Below are positions 13,516-61,204 of a stretch of 64,000 nt of DNA, in pieces. This DNA comes from Candidatus Cottocaccamicrobium excrementipullorum (GTDB lineage: Bacteria; Bacillota; Clostridia; Lachnospirales; Lachnospiraceae): positions 1-64,000 of the forward strand of contig DVFL01000035.1 in NCBI GenBank assembly GCA_018713255.1, given 5' to 3'. Below the pieces are notes generated by a model. That model worked only from the letters and a program-made list of their open reading frames with translations, made no database searches and was not told the origin of the DNA. Made by a program: the position numbers and the translations under genes. Positions within the stretch are counted from its first letter, which is position 1, and each line of letters starts with the position of its first letter.

Positions 13516-14763
13516 TTATGCGTTCTCAATTTCCGTATAATACAGGTGTCTTGGAAGTCCATCTGTCATAATGGGCGTCAGCTCTGCCTGAATCAGCGGC
13601 TTAATGTAGTTCACGAATTCCGGCGTCACATAATCGCCTGCAGCATTGATCCACTCTCTGGGAACCTTCTTCTCCACATTGGCGATCTTATGTACATCAT
13701 AAATATCCGTCACGCAGATATACGGATCGTCAGAAATTCTCTTTAAAATAATCATCTTTCCTGTTTCGCCTTCATGAGCCGCCTTTACTGCCGCTCCGCC
13801 TACCTGGAAAGCTTCTGTAATGTCAACCCGAGAAACGATGTGGGAGGCGCATCGCTGCAGGGAGTTAAATTCAATAGCCCTGGTCTTGCATCCAGTCTCA
13901 CGGTTAATCTTCTCCGCCAGATATCTGGCCGTTCCGGTCAGCTGCTTATGACCGAAGGCATCCACAAAATCAATCCCGTTAGTCAATTCACACACGTATT
14001 TTCCATCAGCAGTTTTCAAGCCTTCCGATACCGCCACCACAACAGATTTCTTTCTGCTGTGAAGATCAGCCACCTTCGCCATAAACTGGTCCACATCAAA
14101 GGGAATCTCAGGCAGGAAAATCATATCCGGACCAGGACAATCCTCGCACTTGGCAAGAGCCGCCGCGCCAGTCAGCCACCCTGCGTTGCGTCCCATGATC
14201 TCCAGAATCGTCACGTTCTGCTGATCGTAAACCAGTCCGTCACGAATTACTTCCTTGGTAATAGACCCGATATATTTCGCCGCACTTCCGTAACCTGGGG
14301 TATGGTCGGTAACTGCCAGATCGTTATCGATGGTTTTCGGCACGCCCATGAAGCGGATCTTGCTGCCGTTTAATAAGGCATAATCAGAAAGTTTCTTAAT
14401 GGTGTCCATGGAATCGTTTCCGCCGATGTAAAAGAAGTACTCGATCTCCAGCTTATCCAGAATCGAGAAAATCTTGTCGTAAATTTCTCTGTCCTCGCTG
14501 ATCTCCGGAAGCTTAAACCGGCAGGAGCCAAGGTAAGCAGAAGGAGTGCGCTTTAACAGTTCAATATCCAGATCATTGCGGATATGCTTCTCCAGATCTA
14601 CATAGCGCTCTTCCAGCAGTCCCTGGATTCCGTGAATCATCCCGTAAACCTTCTTCGCTCCCCGGTCTTTCGCAGTCTTAAACACCCCTACCAGACTGGA
14701 ATTAATTACTGCCGTAGGACCTCCCGACTGTCCTACAATTACATTACCTGTTACTGCAGTCAT
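13516..14763 (-). CDS. phosphofructokinase, PPi-type residues (copy 1)
   Basis: A 415-aa phosphofructokinase-family enzyme. It has GQSGGPTAVINSSL at the N-terminus, GGNDS at residues 114-118 and GVPKTIDNDL at ~140-149. In E. coli numbering the positions that select the donor are Asp104 (here D117) and Lys124 (here K143), the residues of pyrophosphate-dependent enzymes rather than Gly/Gly of ATP enzymes, so it is probably diphosphate:fructose-6-phosphate 1-phosphotransferase. The start at 14763 follows GGGAGGT. A close paralogue lies at 23418-24656. It appears monocistronic. Confidence 0.88.
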   Translation of the reverse strand: MTAVTGNVIVGQSGGPTAVINSSLVGVFKTAKDRGAKKVYGMIHGIQGLLEERYVDLEKHIRNDLDIELLKRTPSAYLGSCRFKLPEISEDREIYDKIFSILDKLEIEYFFYIGGNDSMDTIKKLSDYALLNGSKIRFMGVPKTIDNDLAVTDHTPGYGSAAKYIGSITKEVIRDGLVYDQQNVTILEIMGRNAGWLTGAAALAKCEDCPGPDMIFLPEIPFDVDQFMAKVADLHSRKKSVVVAVSEGLKTADGKYVCELTNGIDFVDAFGHKQLTGTARYLAEKINRETGCKTRAIEFNSLQRCASHIVSRVDITEAFQVGGAAVKAAHEGETGKMIILKRISDDPYICVTDIYDVHKIANVEKKVPREWINAAGDYVTPEFVNYIKPLIQAELTPIMTDGLPRHLYYTEIENA

Positions 14764-14961
14764 AACAATTACCTCCCATTCATTGCAAACGTGTGCAAGC
14801 TCATATGTTTTTATCATACTACCCCGGTCAATATTTTGCAAGTAAAAGTTGACATTTTGACTAATAATCTTTTATTTAACGTTATTTTTTTAACTATATT
14901 GCTTAATTGCCTGATGGCTGCTTAGGACGTCACGCCGGCCGCCTGACCTTTGGATTTTCAG

Positions 14962-23417: not shown

Positions 23418-24656
23418 TTATCTCCGCAGCACCAGATGCTGGGGGAGGCCGTTTACCATAAACGGCTGGTAATCACCCTGGATTAAAGGTTCAATATAAT
23501 TAATAAAATCCTCAGTCACATAATTTCCTTCTCGGTTCACCCAGTTCCTGGGAACCAGCTTTTCGTTATTGGCAATTTTATGCACATCGTAAATTCCCGC
23601 CGCGCTCATATAAGGATCATCGGACACCCGGTCAATCACCACCATCTTCCCGGTATCCCCTTCGTCTGCCGCTTTCACCGCTGCGCCTCCTACCATAAAG
23701 GCTTCATTAATGTCGACCCGGGAAGCCATATGGGAAGCGCTCCGCTGCAAAGTGGAGAATTCCACGCTTCTGGTTTTACATCCAATCTCATTCTTCACAA
23801 ACCCGGCCAAATATGCGGCGGTTCCCTGAAGCTGCTTATGGCCGAAGGCATCTACATAATCTGCGCCGCCAGACAATTCACACACATACCGGCCGTCCTC
23901 CAGTTTAATGCCCTCAGACACCGCCACCACCACGGAACTCTTCTTTTTCAGGAGATCTTTAATCTTTTTCAGGAATTTGTCAATATCGAACACAAGCTCC
24001 GGCAAATAGATCAGATCCGGGCCTTCACAGTCTTCCGTCCTGGCCAAAGCAGTGGCTCCCGTCAGCCACCCTGCATTTCTTCCCATGACCTCAATAACGG
24101 TAACCATGTCCTTCTTATAGGTAAGCCCCAGCGCATCCCGGATTATCTCCTTGGTAGAGGCCCCGATGTATTTGGCGGCGCTTCCATAACCTGGAGTATG
24201 GTCTGTCAGGGCAAGATCATTATCAATGGTTTTCGGAACGCCTAAAAACTTCTGCCGGTGTCCTTTTACAATGGCAAAATCCGACAGTTTTTTTATGGTA
24301 TCCATGGAATCGTTGCCGCCAATATAAATAAACACCTCGATGTTCAGCTTATCCAGAATCTGAAAGATTTTTTCATAAATTTCCGGATTTTCATGAATTT
24401 CCGGAAGTTTATACCGGCAGGAGCCTAAAAAGGCTGAGGGAGTGCGCTTCAGCAGTTCAATGTCCATATCCGAATGGATCTGGGTAGAAAGGTCCACATA
24501 CTGCTCATCCAAAAATCCCTGAATTCCGTGAAGCATTCCATATACTTTATGGAATCCTCTTTCCTTGGCAGTCTTATACACTCCAGCCAGACTGGAATTG
24601 ATAACGGAGGTAGGACCTCCCGACTGTCCAACGATAATATTTCCCTTTTTCGCCAT
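23418..24656 (-). CDS. phosphofructokinase, PPi-type residues (copy 2)
   Basis: A 412-aa paralogue of the enzyme at 13516-14763, alike along its whole length (GNIIVGQSGGPTSVINSSLA; YIGGNDSMDTIKKLSDFA; GVPKTIDNDL). It has the same Asp/Lys donor-selecting residues of PPi-dependent phosphofructokinases. Start 24656 follows AAGGAGG. Having two such genes 9 kb apart may reflect tandem duplication followed by insertion, or separate roles such as glycolysis and pentose metabolism through sedoheptulose phosphates; the sequence does not decide this. Confidence 0.88.
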   Translation of the reverse strand: MAKKGNIIVGQSGGPTSVINSSLAGVYKTAKERGFHKVYGMLHGIQGFLDEQYVDLSTQIHSDMDIELLKRTPSAFLGSCRYKLPEIHENPEIYEKIFQILDKLNIEVFIYIGGNDSMDTIKKLSDFAIVKGHRQKFLGVPKTIDNDLALTDHTPGYGSAAKYIGASTKEIIRDALGLTYKKDMVTVIEVMGRNAGWLTGATALARTEDCEGPDLIYLPELVFDIDKFLKKIKDLLKKKSSVVVAVSEGIKLEDGRYVCELSGGADYVDAFGHKQLQGTAAYLAGFVKNEIGCKTRSVEFSTLQRSASHMASRVDINEAFMVGGAAVKAADEGDTGKMVVIDRVSDDPYMSAAGIYDVHKIANNEKLVPRNWVNREGNYVTEDFINYIEPLIQGDYQPFMVNGLPQHLVLRR

Positions 24657-24699
24657 ACACAAATCCTCCTTATTCTGATTGCGGCACGTTATTTCTATT

Positions 24700-24728
24700 A
24701 TTATAACAAAGGAGGAATTGGCTTTCAA
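24700..24728 (-). promoter_or_regulatory. promoter of second phosphofructokinase gene
   Basis: Minus-strand -35 TTGAAA (24723-24728), 17-bp spacer, -10 TATAAT (24700-24705). Confidence 0.7.
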
Positions 24729-54488: not shown

Positions 54489-54621
54489 AAACACACCTTC
54501 CTTTTTATTTTCCATTATACCCCCTCTCCCAGTCTCTGGCAAGAAAAGCCGGGTATATCCAAGGCCCGCCGCTTTTTATCCGGCAGGCATTCAGGGATTC
54601 CATGTGCGCGCAGCATAGGAC

Positions 54622-56139
54622 TTACTGGTGATAATACTGGAAAAAATCTCCCAGCTTTTCTACCGCCTCTTTCAGCACCTCAATTCTGGGCAGATATACT
54701 ACCCGGAAATGATCTGGCTTTTCCCAGTTAAAACCGCCGCCATGAACTAAAAGGATCTTTTTCTCCCGGAGCAAATCCAGAGCAAACTTCTCATCATCAG
54801 TAATATTGAACTTCTTCACATCCATCTTGGGGAAAATGTAAAAAGCAGCCTTAGGCTTGACTGCGCTGATCCCCGGAATATCATTCAGCGCCTTATAAAT
54901 GTATTCTCTCTGCTCATAAATCCTGCCTCCTGGAACCAGATAACTGGTTACGCTCTGATGACCGCCAAGAGCCGTCTGCACAATAGACTGAGCCGGGACA
55001 TTGGAACAGAGACGCATATTGGAGAGCATTTTAATCCCCTCAATATAATCTTTGGCAATCCGTTTATTTCCGCTGAGAATCATCCAGCCGATGCGGAAGC
55101 CGGCAATCATATGGGATTTAGACAGTCCGCTGTACGTTACGCAAAATACATCTGGTGCAAGGGATGCGATGGAAACATGCTTCTCCCCGTCCATCACCAA
55201 ACGGTCATAAATTTCATCGGAAAAAATGATCAGCTGATGCTCTCGGGCAATCTCTACAATCTCATTAAGAACCTCTTTGGGATATAACGCGCCGGTGGGG
55301 TTGTTGGGATTAATGATTACAATGGCTTTCGTCCGGTCGGTGATCTTCTTTCTGATATCCTCCATATCCGGATACCACTCCGCCTCCTCATCACAGACGT
55401 AATGAACCGCCTTACCTCCCGCCAGGGTAGCGCAGGCCGTCCACAGGGGATAATCCGGAGAGGGGATAAGGATCTCATCTCCATCATTCAAAAGGGCGGA
55501 CATGGACAAATTAATCAGTTCGCTAACCCCGTTTCCCGTATAAATATCTTCCATGGAAACATTAGGAATCTGCTTCAGCTGGGCGTACTGCATAATCGCC
55601 TTTCTGGCAGAAAACAATCCATTAGCCGCCGAGTAGCCCTCACATTCCGTCAGCTGCCGGCTCATATCATAAATCACCTCATCTGGAGTGCGGAATCCAA
55701 AGGGCGCGGGATTCCCAATATTCAGCTTTAAAATCTGCGTTCCTGTTTCCTCCATCCTTGCCGCTTCGTCCACCACCGGACCTCTTACGTCATACAGCAC
55801 ATTATCCAGCTTGGTTGATTTTTTAAACTCTCTCATATTCTTTCCTCCTGATTTTTTCCTCTCCGAACCTTCCTGGTGTTCTCCGCCGCCAAAAGACCTC
55901 TCCTCCTCTCCAACATCAGAGGAGCCGCCTTCCAGCCAGGTTTCTTCTACCTGAAGCGTTCGGGCCAGGAAGCGAAGAATATCCGCTCTGGGCACGTTCT
56001 TTCCGCTGACATATTGGCTGACATGGCTTTTTCCCAGCTTAATCCCCTGCTCTGCGGCTGCCCGGACCAGATCAATCTGCTTAATTCCCTGTCTGTCCAT
56101 GGCCTCTTTCAGTCTCTCTGCAAAGATTTCTTTTTCCAT
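54622..56139 (-). CDS. XRE HTH - class I aminotransferase fusion (internal start at 55836)
   Basis: A 505-aa open frame. Residues ~1-68 are an XRE HTH (RLKEAMDRQGIKQIDLVRAA; KSHVSQYVSGKNVPRADI), 69-101 a low-complexity linker, and 102-505 a complete fold-type I PLP aminotransferase like alanine transaminases (GNPAPFGFRTPDEV; IINPNNPTGALYPKE; PLP Lys in SGLSKSHMIAG; FRIGWM). The linker codons contain AGGAGGAAAGAAT directly before ATG at 55836, so a 404-aa stand-alone aminotransferase starting MREFKKSTKLDNV can be made as well. Start 56139 also has AGGAGG. The promoter carries GTTCAA repeats that the XRE part may bind. Confidence 0.85.
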   Translation of the reverse strand: MEKEIFAERLKEAMDRQGIKQIDLVRAAAEQGIKLGKSHVSQYVSGKNVPRADILRFLARTLQVEETWLEGGSSDVGEEERSFGGGEHQEGSERKKSGGKNMREFKKSTKLDNVLYDVRGPVVDEAARMEETGTQILKLNIGNPAPFGFRTPDEVIYDMSRQLTECEGYSAANGLFSARKAIMQYAQLKQIPNVSMEDIYTGNGVSELINLSMSALLNDGDEILIPSPDYPLWTACATLAGGKAVHYVCDEEAEWYPDMEDIRKKITDRTKAIVIINPNNPTGALYPKEVLNEIVEIAREHQLIIFSDEIYDRLVMDGEKHVSIASLAPDVFCVTYSGLSKSHMIAGFRIGWMILSGNKRIAKDYIEGIKMLSNMRLCSNVPAQSIVQTALGGHQSVTSYLVPGGRIYEQREYIYKALNDIPGISAVKPKAAFYIFPKMDVKKFNITDDEKFALDLLREKKILLVHGGGFNWEKPDHFRVVYLPRIEVLKEAVEKLGDFFQYYHQ

Positions 56140-56187
56140 TTTTTCCTCCTGGCTCTCATCAACTATCCGCCTCATTTAACGCAGCGG

Positions 56188-56305
56188 AACAATGTTCAAA
56201 AGCTACGGAGATTATAGCACAGATTTTTGATAAGTTCAATTTCTTTTTTATTGGTTCAATCTTGTCTCTTGGTTCTCAAAAAGAGTTCAATTTCTTTTTT
56301 GAACT
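56188..56305 (-). promoter_or_regulatory. promoter with GTTCAA operator-like repeats
   Basis: Minus-strand -35 TTGAAC (56234-56239), 17-bp spacer, -10 TATAAT (56211-56216). Related sites around it: GAACAATGTTC palindrome (56188-56198), a 17-nt direct repeat AGTTCAATTTCTTTTTT (56233 and 56284), GGTTCAATC (~56253), and the inverted pair AGTTCAA/TTGAACT at 56284-56305. One copy covers the -35. Confidence 0.6.
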
Positions 56306-56313
56306 GATCGTAT

Positions 56314-56371
56314 AAAAAACACCCCGGGCAGTCTGCAGGGTACAGCATCCCTGCAGACCGCCCAAGGTGTC
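56314..56371 (-). terminator. terminator of ROK gene
   Basis: Long stem ACACC..GGGC.GTCTGCAGGG with its complement, followed on the minus strand by TTTTTTATA; 20 bp past the ROK stop. Confidence 0.8.
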
Positions 56372-56390
56372 TGTTCACACGTTTCTCCAT

Positions 56391-57569
56391 TTATTGCGGC
56401 TTTTCCGCCATCAGCTCTGGAAGACTGCAGGCCAAGGCGGTATACGCCGCCCCAATCATCCCTTCTCTTCCATTTACTGCCGGGGTAATGCAAAGTTCAG
56501 GCCTGGCCCGTTCAGGATCCTCCGCCTTTCCAAGTTCCTCCTGCAGCACATCGAACAGCATGTCTCCGAAATATTCCACGGTTAATCCAGCCAAAACAAA
56601 ATCCTGAATGTCAAGAAGCTGACTTAAATTATTGATCACATAGGCAAGATACTGGCTGACATAGCGTACCACCGTTCTCCGCTTCTCTTCATCACAAGAG
56701 CCAGGGTCCTGGAAATCAAACTGAAATTTCCGCTGAAGCTCGCTCTGACAGATAAATTCCTCCACATATCGTTTTTTCCCGTACTGAAGTCCGTTCTCCG
56801 TCCACCGCGGCACCAGCATCTGTCCTACATTTCCCGCAAAGTAACTGGTTCCATGCCAGATCTTTCCATTGATCACTACGCCGGAGCCAAAGCCTGTTCC
56901 CAGCGACAAGTAAAGAAGGTTGGCATGATGAAAAAGCTTTCTCTGAATCGTCTCTCCCAGAGAGGCGGCGTTCATATCATTTTCCAGATAGAGAGGAATG
57001 TCCTGAAATTTTTTTAGTGCTGGAAAGCTTTCGTAAATCTCCTCAAATTCCTCCTCCTTTTGGCTGTGCCTGATCTTCTGCTTCCTGCAGTCGATGATGC
57101 CGGGAAGAGCAAAACCAATGCCCAAAATCTTGGACCGCCCATAGAGCTGGAGTATATGTTCGATCTCTTCTGCCATCTGGAAGGAAAGGGATTTTTTTTG
57201 CTCTGGCGAAGCTTTTTCTCCTCTCGTGAGAAAGGCCTTTTCTCTCACCAGCACAAAATCCATATTCATTAATCCTATCCGCAGCGCATTTCCCTCAAAA
57301 TAGATTCCTATGGTAAAGAACCCCTGGGGATTCAGGCGCAGAATCTGGCTTTTCCTCCCAAATCCGCTGTCCGAAGCCGCAGTCTTTTCCGGATTTTCCT
57401 GAATCAAATTTTTTCCCAGAAGGAAATCTGTGATTTTAATAACCGTAGGCATACTGATTCCCGTCATTTTGGCAATCTCAGGCCGCGTCAGCTCTTTATT
57501 CTCAAAAAAGAGCGACATTACCCTGGTTCTGTTTTTATTTTTTAAATAAGCCGGAAGATATGCATCCAT
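56391..57569 (-). CDS. ROK family transcriptional regulator
   Basis: A 392-aa ROK repressor. The N-terminal winged HTH (~15-65; LTRPEIAKMTGISMPTVIKI) is followed by a sugar-kinase-like ROK domain (ALPGIIDCRKQ; LYLENDMNAASLGE; LLYLSLGTGFGSGVVINGK). The usual ROK zinc motif (C-x-C-G-x4-C-x-E) after GNVGQML is missing, replaced by VPRWTENGLQYGKKRY, so it probably senses sugar but lacks the zinc site. Start follows AAAGGAG. It is 17 bp downstream of the MFS gene; the palindrome upstream of that gene is a candidate target. Confidence 0.85.
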   Translation of the reverse strand: MDAYLPAYLKNKNRTRVMSLFFENKELTRPEIAKMTGISMPTVIKITDFLLGKNLIQENPEKTAASDSGFGRKSQILRLNPQGFFTIGIYFEGNALRIGLMNMDFVLVREKAFLTRGEKASPEQKKSLSFQMAEEIEHILQLYGRSKILGIGFALPGIIDCRKQKIRHSQKEEEFEEIYESFPALKKFQDIPLYLENDMNAASLGETIQRKLFHHANLLYLSLGTGFGSGVVINGKIWHGTSYFAGNVGQMLVPRWTENGLQYGKKRYVEEFICQSELQRKFQFDFQDPGSCDEEKRRTVVRYVSQYLAYVINNLSQLLDIQDFVLAGLTVEYFGDMLFDVLQEELGKAEDPERARPELCITPAVNGREGMIGAAYTALACSLPELMAEKPQ

Positions 57570-57586
57570 TTTATTCTCCTTTAACG

Positions 57587-58789
57587 TTAATGAAAATCCG
57601 CCGCAGGATATTCCTTCTGCCTGCTCAGTTCTTTCTGCTGGATCATGTTATAGCTTATCACAAAAATTCCCACTGCAGCGAAAGCCGCCGCTCCCACAAA
57701 CTGGAGCATGGCCGGAACTCCAAACAGATCACTTAAATGACCGATCACCACGCCGCCGATTCCCCGGGAGAGAATGGTACTGATCATGTTGTTCAGACTT
57801 TGCCCCGTCGCTCTTAACTCCTTCGGCACATTTTGATTGATAAAGGTTACTATACAGAAATTCAAAGTTACAAAACAAAATCCATGGGTCAGATTAATGC
57901 AGACAGCGGCTGCCGGCTCCCGGACCATGCTCAGTAAAATCCATCTGACCCCTGTAACTGCCGCCGAGATCATGATCATTCGTTTGTATCCGAACCGCTC
58001 CGTCAGCCTGCCGGCAATCAGCCAGAACGGGATTTCTGACGCAGCAGTGGCAAACATAAGAATGCCAACGCTTCCGCTGTCTCCGCCAATAGAAGTAAAA
58101 TACAAGGGATAATAAGAATAATATACCGTGGTGCCCAACGAAAAAACAAAGTTCATAAAAATGAAACAGAATATTTTTTTGCTGCTGATTAATCCTCTCC
58201 AGGATGTTTTTTCTTTCTTCCGGCGATATCCCTGAACATCCGGCACCAGCTGCATCGCCAAAATGGACAGCAGAAACAGAATGCTGATCATCACAAACAT
58301 TCTTTCATACCGGTCCTCCATAATCTGGCCGGAGACAAGAACACCTATGGCGTAGCCTATGGTGCCTCCTACCCGAATATGTCCAAAGTTAAATCTGCCT
58401 CCCCGTTTCTCCAGATTCTCCAACGATAAATTGTCAATTAAAGGAGGAATGGGGTGATACACCAGGCAGAACAAGCAGTTAATTACCAGCAGCCACCAAT
58501 AATTTAAACTGCAGTAAAATCCTAAAATCGATATCATTCCAATCAGGAGCATCACCACAATCACTTTATTCTTGCTTTTTGCCCGATCGCTGACATTTCC
58601 CCAAAAGGGCTGGGCCAGAAGAACCAGGATGGTGGAAGCAGAAGTAAAGGTTCCCATCTGTGTCTGGTTGTATCCAGCATCCTGAAGATACAAATTCAGA
58701 TAAGTTCCGAAAATTGCCTGCGCTGCATAAAACCCTAAATAGGGCAGCAGAATGTTAACAGGAAATTTCTCTCTCGCCGTTGTATTCAT
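57587..58789 (-). CDS. MFS transporter
   Basis: A 400-aa major facilitator with 12 predicted helices in two bundles. Signature-like loops are WGNVSDRAKSKNK after helix 2 and GRLTERFGYKRM after helix 8. The N-terminal PYLGFYAAQAIFGTYLNLYL resembles sugar/nucleoside:proton symporters. The start has only a weak ribosome site (AAAGGCAG). Co-transcribed with the ROK regulator, so a carbohydrate substrate is likely; unproven. Confidence 0.85.
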   Translation of the reverse strand: MNTTAREKFPVNILLPYLGFYAAQAIFGTYLNLYLQDAGYNQTQMGTFTSASTILVLLAQPFWGNVSDRAKSKNKVIVVMLLIGMISILGFYCSLNYWWLLVINCLFCLVYHPIPPLIDNLSLENLEKRGGRFNFGHIRVGGTIGYAIGVLVSGQIMEDRYERMFVMISILFLLSILAMQLVPDVQGYRRKKEKTSWRGLISSKKIFCFIFMNFVFSLGTTVYYSYYPLYFTSIGGDSGSVGILMFATAASEIPFWLIAGRLTERFGYKRMIMISAAVTGVRWILLSMVREPAAAVCINLTHGFCFVTLNFCIVTFINQNVPKELRATGQSLNNMISTILSRGIGGVVIGHLSDLFGVPAMLQFVGAAAFAAVGIFVISYNMIQQKELSRQKEYPAADFH

Positions 58790-58818
58790 CGTGGTTCATC
58801 TGCCTTTCCGCCAAATAA

Positions 58819-58835
58819 TTAATAAACTTTATTAA
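58819..58835. promoter_or_regulatory. 17-bp palindrome upstream of MFS-ROK operon
   Basis: TTAATAAA-C-TTTATTAA, a perfect 8-bp-arm palindrome 30 bp before the MFS start. It is a good candidate for the ROK operator. It lies immediately before the bilS stop codon. Confidence 0.6.
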
Positions 58836-58836
58836 G

Positions 58837-59394
58837 TTATTTGACTATAGCACTTTCTTTCTTCTGTGTCAAGATAAAACGCTCAGCCGCCTGAAACAGC
58901 CCTTCCATATCCTGATCATCTGGATGAGACAAAGCCTGGTCAAAATTCCGAATCAGCATCTCCATACGCTCTGGGTCTTTTTCCTTCATCATCTCATAAC
59001 GTCTGCGAACGCTTTCCGGCATTTTCCCCTGGCACATAAAGCTTCCTCGGCAGATATTCGTCTCCTCCAGGTGCTCCTTTACCCGAGACAAAATCCGCGA
59101 AAAATACTCCTGACTTTCTCCAAAGCCTGCTGTGCCAAAAAGAAACACCTGTTTCCCGTGAAGACGTTCCAGAAAAGCGGCGGTTTTCTCATCGCAGTCT
59201 CCCTTGTCCGTCCAGAATCCTGCAAACCACAGCTCTCCTTCTTCCAGCATATGCTCGTCCGCCCCTTCCGGCTCTCCAAAATAAATGCAGGACATTCCCT
59301 CAGGCCGGCAGATTCTTGCCAGCTCTTCCTTCAATCCTTCTGCCAATTTTCGTGTATTCCCGGTTTGACTGCTGTATACAATTCCGTATTTCAT
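58837..59394 (-). CDS. bilS: flavodoxin-like protein, BilS candidate
   Basis: A 185-aa flavodoxin-fold protein. The FMN phosphate loop is YSSQTGNTRKLAE (residues ~7-19) and FGTAGFGESQEYFS (~90-103) forms the second flavin-binding region. In gut clostridia a flavodoxin-like gene (bilS) is encoded beside bilirubin reductase bilR and is proposed to pass electrons to it. Order, strand and size fit that operon. Start 59394 follows TAGGAG; an upstream in-frame extension runs back to bilR and lacks a site. It lies 43 bp after bilR. Confidence 0.82.
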   Translation of the reverse strand: MKYGIVYSSQTGNTRKLAEGLKEELARICRPEGMSCIYFGEPEGADEHMLEEGELWFAGFWTDKGDCDEKTAAFLERLHGKQVFLFGTAGFGESQEYFSRILSRVKEHLEETNICRGSFMCQGKMPESVRRRYEMMKEKDPERMEMLIRNFDQALSHPDDQDMEGLFQAAERFILTQKKESAIVK

Positions 59395-59437
59395 AACCTT
59401 TCTCCTATTCTCCAAAATTTTCAATGTGATCACACGT

Positions 59438-60550
59438 TCAGCTGTTCCTGTGATCATAGATACAATGCACTCCTCGATGGGCCTGAATCCCCCCCAGGCA
59501 CTCCCGGTTGCACCGGACACAGCGGTGTATCTTGTCTTTTTCACCAGATTTAACTTTCTGCGGCCAATCTGAATCAGCGATCAGCTGACGGCTCATAGCA
59601 GCGCACTGAATCCTTCCTGATGCCAGCTGTTCCTCGATAAAATCCGGATTTGTCAGTCCGCCGACACCGGTTATGGGGAGATTGGTAAACCGCCGCACCT
59701 GATCACAAATCGGGAGGAAGCACCCTTCTCCGCTGAAGGCCTGATGAGACGCCGGCGGAATAGTATCGGTCAGATGGGAATGATTCGCCAACGTCACATG
59801 ATAACTATTCACCCCTGCTTCTTCAAGCAAAGGGAGAAAAATCGGCAGCTCTTCTTCCAGAATTCCTGCTTTTCCATAATCCGGATTTTCCAGGCGTACT
59901 GCCAGCTTATAATCAATAGACACCTCCGGAAGGGCCTTCCGCACTGACTTTACCGCCTCTGCTGCAAATCTGGCTCGGTTTTCCGGCGTTCCTCCATAGC
60001 AGTCTTTCCGCTGATTAAACAGAGCAGAAGAAAAGCTTCCGGCCATCCGGTCTCCGTGAATCTGAACCATATCAAAACCTGCCGCCACAGCCAGCCGCGC
60101 CGCCTGCCCAAAGGATGAGGTAATTTCCCGAACCTTCCATTCCGGCATTTCATTAATTAGGGCGGAAATCTGCTCATTCAGCAGAACACGAAGCTCGTCA
60201 GATGAAATCTTCTTCGTCAGCACCCCAGGAATATATTTCAGCATTCCTTTAAGATTGCTGTCCGACTGGTGAAGCTGGGCACAGATTCTGCAGTCATAAC
60301 GGTGGGCAATCTGGCAGAGTTCCTGATAAAAAGCAAATCCCTTCTTTCGATACAACGATTTCCCAAAAAGAGTGTGTTTCAGTACCGGCACATCCCCAAT
60401 TATGATCATTCCGCAGCCGCCTGCTGCAATTTTCCTTATTTTTTCCTTGTACTCATCATCCTTAAGCCCCATACTGGTGGGCGCAAAAATAATGCGGTTT
60501 TTCAGACTGGTTTTTCCCAAGGTCACCGGGCTGAACATTGTCTCATACAT
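59438..60550 (-). CDS. bilR: bilirubin reductase BilR candidate (old yellow enzyme family)
   Basis: A 370-aa OYE-family enzyme. The FMN TIM barrel starts MYETMFSPVTLGKTSLKNRI. Where most OYE proteins have an H-x2-H or H-x2-N pair, this one reads IHGDRMAG, with His165, Gly166, Asp167 and Arg168: the HGDR motif that distinguishes bilirubin reductases. NQRKDCYGGTPENRARF follows. A C-terminal cysteine set C344-x2-C347-x3-C351-x11-C363 is an iron-sulfur-cluster motif as in 2,4-dienoyl-CoA reductases, but the FAD/NADH domain of those is absent, fitting use of a separate flavodoxin. It would reduce bilirubin toward urobilinogen. Start overlaps bilQ by 8 bp and follows AAGGAGG. Confidence 0.85.
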   Translation of the reverse strand: MYETMFSPVTLGKTSLKNRIIFAPTSMGLKDDEYKEKIRKIAAGGCGMIIIGDVPVLKHTLFGKSLYRKKGFAFYQELCQIAHRYDCRICAQLHQSDSNLKGMLKYIPGVLTKKISSDELRVLLNEQISALINEMPEWKVREITSSFGQAARLAVAAGFDMVQIHGDRMAGSFSSALFNQRKDCYGGTPENRARFAAEAVKSVRKALPEVSIDYKLAVRLENPDYGKAGILEEELPIFLPLLEEAGVNSYHVTLANHSHLTDTIPPASHQAFSGEGCFLPICDQVRRFTNLPITGVGGLTNPDFIEEQLASGRIQCAAMSRQLIADSDWPQKVKSGEKDKIHRCVRCNRECLGGIQAHRGVHCIYDHRNS

Positions 60551-60998
60551 GGCAATTTCCTCCTTCCTTTTCTGTCCTTTCCATTATGTTCAATTCTTTC
60601 ATGGTTTTTTCCAGCAATTTCATCAAAGTTTCTTTCTCCTCCAACGTTAATCCGCCTAAAGCCTTCTGGTCCCACATGGAAAATAATTTCCTGCAAAGCA
60701 AGAACGCTTCCTCTCCCTGCTCTGTCAGATACAAGCTGCGGCTTCTTCTGTCTTCCGGCTTCTGTTCCTGCAGCAAAAATCCCCCCTGCTCCAGCCTGCC
60801 AATGGATCGAGCCGTATGACCCGCGTCCATAGACAAGGCTTTCGCAAGCTGTCCTGGAGTGCATCCCGGATGTTTCCCCAGATAAAGAAGAAAATATAAA
60901 AGTCCCGGAGACAATCCAATCTGCGAAAGCTGACTGCTGGTATACTCCAGAAATTCCTTCCGCAAACATAAAATATAAGATGCAAAAGATGAAAGCAT
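60543..60998 (-). CDS. bilQ: MarR family regulator, BilQ candidate
   Basis: A 151-aa MarR regulator with winged HTH: PGCTPGQLAKALSMDAGHTARS (~43-64) and wing QEQKPEDRRSRSLYLTEQGE (~76-95), flanked by dimerisation helices. It is the first gene of the bilQRS-like operon and overlaps bilR by 8 bp. Start 60998 follows GGAGGGAG. Its promoter holds two identical-type palindromes overlapping the -35 and the start region, the arrangement of an autorepressed MarR operon relieved by ligand. Confidence 0.85.
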   Translation of the reverse strand: MLSSFASYILCLRKEFLEYTSSQLSQIGLSPGLLYFLLYLGKHPGCTPGQLAKALSMDAGHTARSIGRLEQGGFLLQEQKPEDRRSRSLYLTEQGEEAFLLCRKLFSMWDQKALGGLTLEEKETLMKLLEKTMKELNIMERTEKEGGNCHV

Positions 60999-61017
60999 CT
61001 CTCTCCCTCCTTATTAT

Positions 61018-61058
61018 TTGACTTAGTCAAGTATAGAGAAATAAATTGACTTTGTCAA
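61018..61058 (-). promoter_or_regulatory. bilQRS promoter with twin MarR-type operators
   Basis: Minus-strand -35 TTGACA (61053-61058), 17-bp spacer, -10 TATACT (61030-61035). Two palindromes TTGAC-N3-GTCAA lie at 61046-61058 (covering the -35) and 61018-61030 (just after the -10), 28 bp centre to centre. Confidence 0.8.
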
Positions 61059-61114
61059 GTTACTGATTTCCTGTCCAGCCGCAAAGTCAATGCATCGGAA
61101 AAATTTCGGCAAAA

Positions 61115-61156
61115 AAGGGCTGTGAAAAAATTGATTTCTCATTTTTTCACAGCCCC
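61115..61156 (-). terminator. terminator of ftsH
   Basis: GGGCTGTGAAAAAAT and ATTTTTTCACAGCCC form a perfect stem followed on the minus strand by TTTTTTG; 49 bp past the ftsH stop and before the bilQRS promoter. Confidence 0.85.
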
Positions 61157-61204
61157 GAACGCCTGCCTTATTTTTAATTGTCCAGTAATCCTTTGCCTTA
61201 CTCT

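Follow-up and report, generated by a model that had tools for sequence, protein, structure and literature searches.

A short-BilR bilQRS operon predicted to reduce bile pigments in a Lachnospiraceae genome, with paired palindromes as a candidate BilQ operator

We identified in a Lachnospiraceae genome a bilQ-bilR-bilS operon that, with high probability, encodes a short BilR fed by BilS, is repressed by BilQ through paired boxes, and yields divinyl-urobilinogen in a genome in which BilV was not found. BilQ binding and its ligand, the electron path, the substrate and the product are parts of this scheme that we infer. The locus lies in the 64,000-nt stretch of DNA analyzed here (the window) and is an ordinary new example of the published bilQRS system in an added species, with the reduction of bile pigments, bilirubin among them, as its predicted role. 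Its genes are:

60998-60543, minus strand: bilQ, a MarR-family regulator of 151 aa with an ATG start (NF045593)
60550-59438, minus strand: bilR, a short-form OYE of 370 aa (NF045592)
59394-58837, minus strand: bilS, a flavodoxin-like protein of 185 aa (NF045594; PF12641 Flavodoxin_3)

The order MarR, OYE, flavodoxin with an 8-bp overlap, as originally proposed, agrees with these coordinates: all three lie on the minus strand, bilQ and bilR share positions 60543-60550, and a gap of 43 bp separates bilR from bilS. NCBIfam release 20 contains equivalog-type models for BilQ, BilR and BilS, and each protein passed the curated cut-off: BilQ with 164.1 bits on NF045593 (cut-off 125), BilR with 535.7 bits on NF045592, an equivalog-domain model of the bilirubin reductase N-terminal domain (cut-off 425), and BilS, whose gene adjoins bilR, with 207.0 bits on NF045594 (cut-off 155). 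These scores far exceed what would be expected by chance, and the three cut-offs, together with the position of BilR in the BilR clade (below), uphold the proposed bilQ-bilR-bilS identity. Pfam by itself labels the genes MarR, Oxidored_FMN and Flavodoxin_3; the expectation that a generic annotation would miss the operon did not hold, since NCBI's models assign each of the three its specific name. In the bilS frame, the listed ORF opens at an upstream GTG (235 aa) and the ATG at 59394 gives 185 aa; we placed the start at this ATG because it is preceded by AGGAGAAAGG and because the BilS model aligns from residue 3. Since curated models, motif, gene order and tree all support bilQ, a short bilR and bilS, pigment reduction by this organism is a well-founded prediction.

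BilR carries the active-site motif H165 G166 D167 R168 and Fe-S cysteines at 344, 347, 351 and 363 (C-x2-C-x3-C-x11-C), matching the HGDR motif with D167/R168 and the cysteine cluster of the original prediction. The protein is of the short subtype: its last cysteine is residue 363 of 370, the flavodoxin-like and NAD(P)H C-terminal domains are absent, and the long-form model NF045599 gave 293.5 bits, below its cut-off of 750. In the available text of PMC10769871, BilS and the C-terminal domains of long BilR are suggested to serve electron transfer. The flavodoxin BilS is probably the route by which electrons reach the short BilR, since the NAD(P)H domain found at the C-terminus of long BilR is absent from it. 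Among short-bilR loci having bilQ (the window and 17 others; tblastn, E up to 1e-5), bilS was found in just 10 of 18, so that BilS cannot supply electrons to short BilR in general, and the remaining loci must draw on other donors.

With regard to the product, PMC10769871 (2024), in the part available, concluded that BilR alone converts bilirubin to urobilinogen. This claim is revised in a 2026 preprint (PMC13252198), whose available text states that BilR reduces the methine bridges only, giving divinyl-urobilinogen, and that vinyl reduction requires BilV, reported in 0.4% of short-bilR species. A BilV with AHAH was not found in our genome (96.1% complete); the query was the BilV-like protein of a congener (G005), chosen by its neighborhood (insertion-type BilR) and AHAH motif and not a verified enzyme, and its best match (33% identity, 297.4 bits) was an OYE without AHAH on contig C9. 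By this test, the BilR-plus-BilV pathway to urobilinogen appears incomplete in the genome at its 96.1% completeness. Because BilR alone is assigned the methine bridges only (PMC13252198) and BilV was not found in the genome, we predict divinyl-urobilinogen as the product in place of the urobilinogen originally named. The C9 protein (L002, 657 aa; G000:C9:83621-85534, same genome as the window) was considered as a BilV or a second BilR and rejected, having neither HGDR nor AHAH. Its scores all fall below the cut-offs and leave it unclassified: 191.0 bits against 425 for bilirubin reductase, and 404 bits against 793 for mycofactocin OYE_2 and 825 for BaiCD. It is a weak sister of BilR in the tree described below (92/84, long branch). 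A BilV-like OYE with AHAH that falls among the BilV-like rows was also seen in a genome without bilR above the cut-off (L059, G332).

It is conceivable, although we would put it forward only tentatively, that the natural substrate of BilR is mainly biliverdin or another open-chain tetrapyrrole and that bilirubin is incidental. According to the available text of PMC13252198, C. difficile bilR-S reduces biliverdin and short BilR predominates in the gut of birds, whose main pigment is biliverdin, and the nearest relative was described from chicken faeces (PMC8035907, as far as available). However, the available account of PMC10769871 has bilirubin as a substrate of BilRS from C. symbiosum and from C. 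difficile, and the two substrates are compatible.

The bilQRS operon, as a predicted bile-pigment reduction system, is preceded by a putative promoter with the following elements:

61046..61058, minus strand: box 1, palindrome TTGACAAAGTCAA, containing the -35 hexamer TTGACA (61058-61053)
61030..61058, minus strand: predicted bilQ promoter, TTGACA-17 bp-TATACT, an 11/12 consensus match
61018..61030, minus strand: box 2, palindrome TTGACTAAGTCAA, placed 28 bp from box 1 and beginning with the T that ends the -10 hexamer

Thus, two TTGACNNNGTCAA palindromes, 28 bp apart, overlie the -35 and -10 of the bilQ promoter, and the right-hand limit first given for the locus, 61058, is the outer edge of this promoter/operator. 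No other site of the window matches TTGACNNNGTCAA exactly, and shuffling predicts 0.03 such matches. Since TTGACA is itself a -35 sequence, promoters should often show a half-box, which accounts for neither the GTCAA half nor the second box. Across 29 bil operons, 33 boxes with at most one mismatch were found in 7,210 bp of upstream sequence vs. nine in 290,136 bp elsewhere. Among bilQ-containing operons, 18 of 19 have at least one box at this threshold: 14 have a pair, four a single box, and L007 none, where two diverged CTGAC...ATCAG-type sites occur instead. In this tally L068, which is L004 reversed, was not added a second time; locus counts are not independent events, given the close relationship within the pairs L008/L009 and L077/L079. 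The spacing of the pair is 28 bp in 13 loci and 29 bp in one (L077), yet the -35/-10 spacer of the latter is still 17. Of ten loci without a bilQ match, one (L086) has a box, a single perfect copy, with a MerR-like gene in place of bilQ. In Peptacetobacter hominis (L011), where bilR lies ahead of bilQ, the pair is upstream of bilR and none occurs before bilQ, indicating that the pair tracks the operon promoter. Judged by record titles, box-bearing sites occur in Lachnospiraceae, Butyricicoccaceae, Oscillospiraceae and Peptostreptococcaceae.

The boxes also occur away from BilQ. Of 397 genomes sampled from the family, two carry perfect TTGACNNNGTCAA pairs, 28 bp apart, before alpha/beta-hydrolase-MarR operons (L088, G113:C20; L094, G165:C5), whose MarR proteins are BilQ-related and scored 51.5 and 55.1 bits on the BilQ model, below the cut-off of 125. 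With up to two mismatches, a pair occurs in eight of the 397 genomes, and the reversed-pattern control in four; five of the eight are at bilQ of short-bilR genomes (5/8 of those sampled), two are the hydrolase-MarR operons, and one, in G404, has two mismatches and is probably due to chance. Genome-wide, three exact boxes were found in our organism, two at the bilQ promoter and a single one on contig C25. As this one extra box is fewer than the six sites of the reversed-pattern control, further BilQ targets in the genome were rejected, and exact matching gave no sign of a wider regulon. We therefore read the pair as a predicted BilQ operator of good specificity, which the hydrolase-MarR operons and their sub-cut-off MarR proteins prevent from being complete.

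Conservation of the box pair across the promoter suggests BilQ as the regulator of the bil operon, and the pair is probably its operator for autorepression. In this scheme BilQ, as a MarR repressor, probably binds both palindromes over its own -35 and -10, and bound BilQ would shut off bilQ, bilR and bilS; a ligand, either a bile pigment or another small aromatic, would lift repression. The broader view, that BilQ is a bile-pigment-responsive autorepressor and that an ancient design of two TTGACNNNGTCAA boxes (28 bp, -35/-10) was carried along as bilQR(S) spread horizontally through the Clostridia, has in our judgment an even chance of being correct. No description of a bilQ operator or promoter design was found in the open-licence literature searched.

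Downstream of bilS, the following features were mapped:

58872-58844, minus strand: promoter-like TTGACA-17-TATAGT (11/12), within the 3' end of bilS and before the MFS gene
About 58842-58813, minus strand: AT-rich dyad between the promoter-like site and the MFS gene
58789-57587, minus strand: MFS transporter, outside the operon
57569-56391, minus strand: ROK-type regulator, outside the operon
56368-56321, minus strand: terminator-like hairpin after the ROK gene

Because a promoter-like site of its own precedes the MFS gene, the MFS and ROK genes look separate from the bil operon, and the AT-rich dyad is possibly the operator of the ROK regulator. A transcription unit extending to the MFS transporter (and the ROK regulator), which would make the former a pigment transporter, is improbable. 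The MFS gene is on the same strand, 47 bp from bilS, and the interval contains no terminator-like site, so read-through is possible, but the 11/12 promoter-like site and the dyad stand before it, and an MFS homologue was present in none of 28 distinct bilR neighborhoods (flanks of varying length, some contigs ending nearby). In addition, the nearest relative has a different membrane protein at the matching position, which we take to be DUF368-like.

To place BilR, a maximum-likelihood tree was built from the N-terminal regions of 59 OYEs (28 BilR, 5 BilV-like and 26 other OYEs from the searches). Rows were cut at 420 aa, L008 and L009 were trimmed to the last 372 aa, and four rows were left out: the BilR of L012 (broken frame) and the OYEs of L003, L021 and L030 (partial, redundant or distant). 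The window BilR lies inside a 17-row short-BilR clade (100/100) nested in the 28-row BilR clade (100/99), and is sister to the BilR of Ca. Caccovicinus merdipullorum, to which it is 78% identical; the BilV-like rows, which bear AHAH, form a separate clade (100/99). The experimentally verified BilR of C. symbiosum, C. difficile, R. gnavus and Clostridium sp. M62/1 are not among the rows, and the curated model substitutes for them; the closest literature anchor is Roseburia inulinivorans, a predicted bilR carrier in the available text of PMC10769871. All 30 BilR-labelled rows had HGDR and no other OYE row did, some of the latter having been re-read on the correct strand for AHAH only. A divergent short BilR (L086, G378:C23) with HGDR and 384.4 bits, below the cut-off of 425, branches beside the short clade; its row is named 'long' in the tree, though the protein is short (about 360-390 aa). 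The placement of the 370-aa protein in the BilR clade, as anticipated, showed no grouping with enoate or dienoyl-CoA reductases outside BilR. It is very improbable that BilR is an enoate/dienoyl-CoA-type reductase that retained HGDR by descent and acts on a different substrate: the superfamily is broad, with 136 distinct PDB sequences matching BilR at E up to 0.001, but BilR exceeds a cut-off on NF045592 that none of 14 control genomes passes (13 of them give matches), and the distribution of HGDR and the operon partners BilQ and BilS also argue against it.

Above the model cut-off, bilR was found in 17 of the 397 sampled family genomes (eight short and nine long, by open-frame length) and in 4 of 11 genomes of the genus. 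Ca. Caccovicinus, a genus from chicken faecal metagenomes in Lachnospiraceae, equals GTDB genus UMGS1370 (PMC8035907, available text); its species merdipullorum is represented by L004, whose sequence is identical to the reverse complement of contig C65 of G001, a genome of the same genus as the window. Between ftsH and a nitroreductase gene our genome has 6,662 bp, as compared with 60-263 bp in 8 of 10 congeners (between tblastn ends); in G001 the interval is filled by 4,690 bp of unrelated genes, and G002 is arranged differently. The extra 6.7 kb carries a helix-turn-helix/aminotransferase gene along with bilQRS, MFS and ROK. That 8 of 10 congeners lack these 6.7 kb at this position is as would be expected of horizontal gain. 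Other short bilR loci of the genus lie beside a membrane-protein gene in G001 and a phosphofructokinase gene in G004, and the G004 BilR is not sister to those of the window and G001. Repeated horizontal gain is the simplest reading of bilR in the genus, with loss and relocation as alternatives. The interval itself (window 54543-61204) looks like a variable site among congeners. The aminotransferase gene (54622-56175, minus strand) encodes a 517-aa fusion of an N-terminal helix-turn-helix domain and a class I/II aminotransferase. The window also contains two phosphofructokinase-family genes (13516-14841 and 23418-24728, minus strand), and a 91%-identical counterpart of the latter adjoins bilQR of G004.

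Bilirubin reduction in the gut bears on jaundice and pigment recycling, and its enzymes have been known since 2024. The locus adds one species to the carriers of bilR, in a genus that holds both kinds, some members having a short bilR and one a long bilR with BilV. The addition made here is the regulatory design, a hypothesis open to testing about what turns on the short operon. Should BilQ respond to bile pigment, its operator would provide a direct route to a sensor and to predicting expression of the enzyme by gut bacteria. If the autorepressor reading is true, the box pair could mark inducible short-BilR operons in genomes and could be a ready-made part for a bilirubin/biliverdin biosensor.

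Among known systems, an OYE protein with Y166 shares with the window BilR the OYE fold family and the Fe-S cysteine pattern, matching it through the N-terminal part only (query 2-366, E 4.1e-27). Its active site has Y166 (PMC10769871, available text), in contrast to HGDR in the window BilR. The insertion-type long BilR (PMC13252198, available text), as in G005 (L069) of the window's genus, is of the HGDR type as well, but is about 670 aa with extra C-terminal domains and adjoins an AHAH-type BilV, whereas the window BilR is short; moreover, the L069 stretch has neither a bilQ match nor a box, unlike the window operon. The bilQRS of C. symbiosum and Clostridioides difficile (Hall et al. 2024, PMC10769871) are from other species and were likened to our operon by the available part of the published description: three genes and a short BilR with HGDR, as here. 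That part mentions bilQ twice and MarR once and does not describe a bilQ promoter or operator. Closest is the bilQRS of Ca. Caccovicinus merdipullorum, which, unlike the window operon, is not beside ftsH, but has the same gene order in the same genus, BilQ and BilS 68% and 64% identical to ours, and paired boxes 28 bp apart, as in the window.
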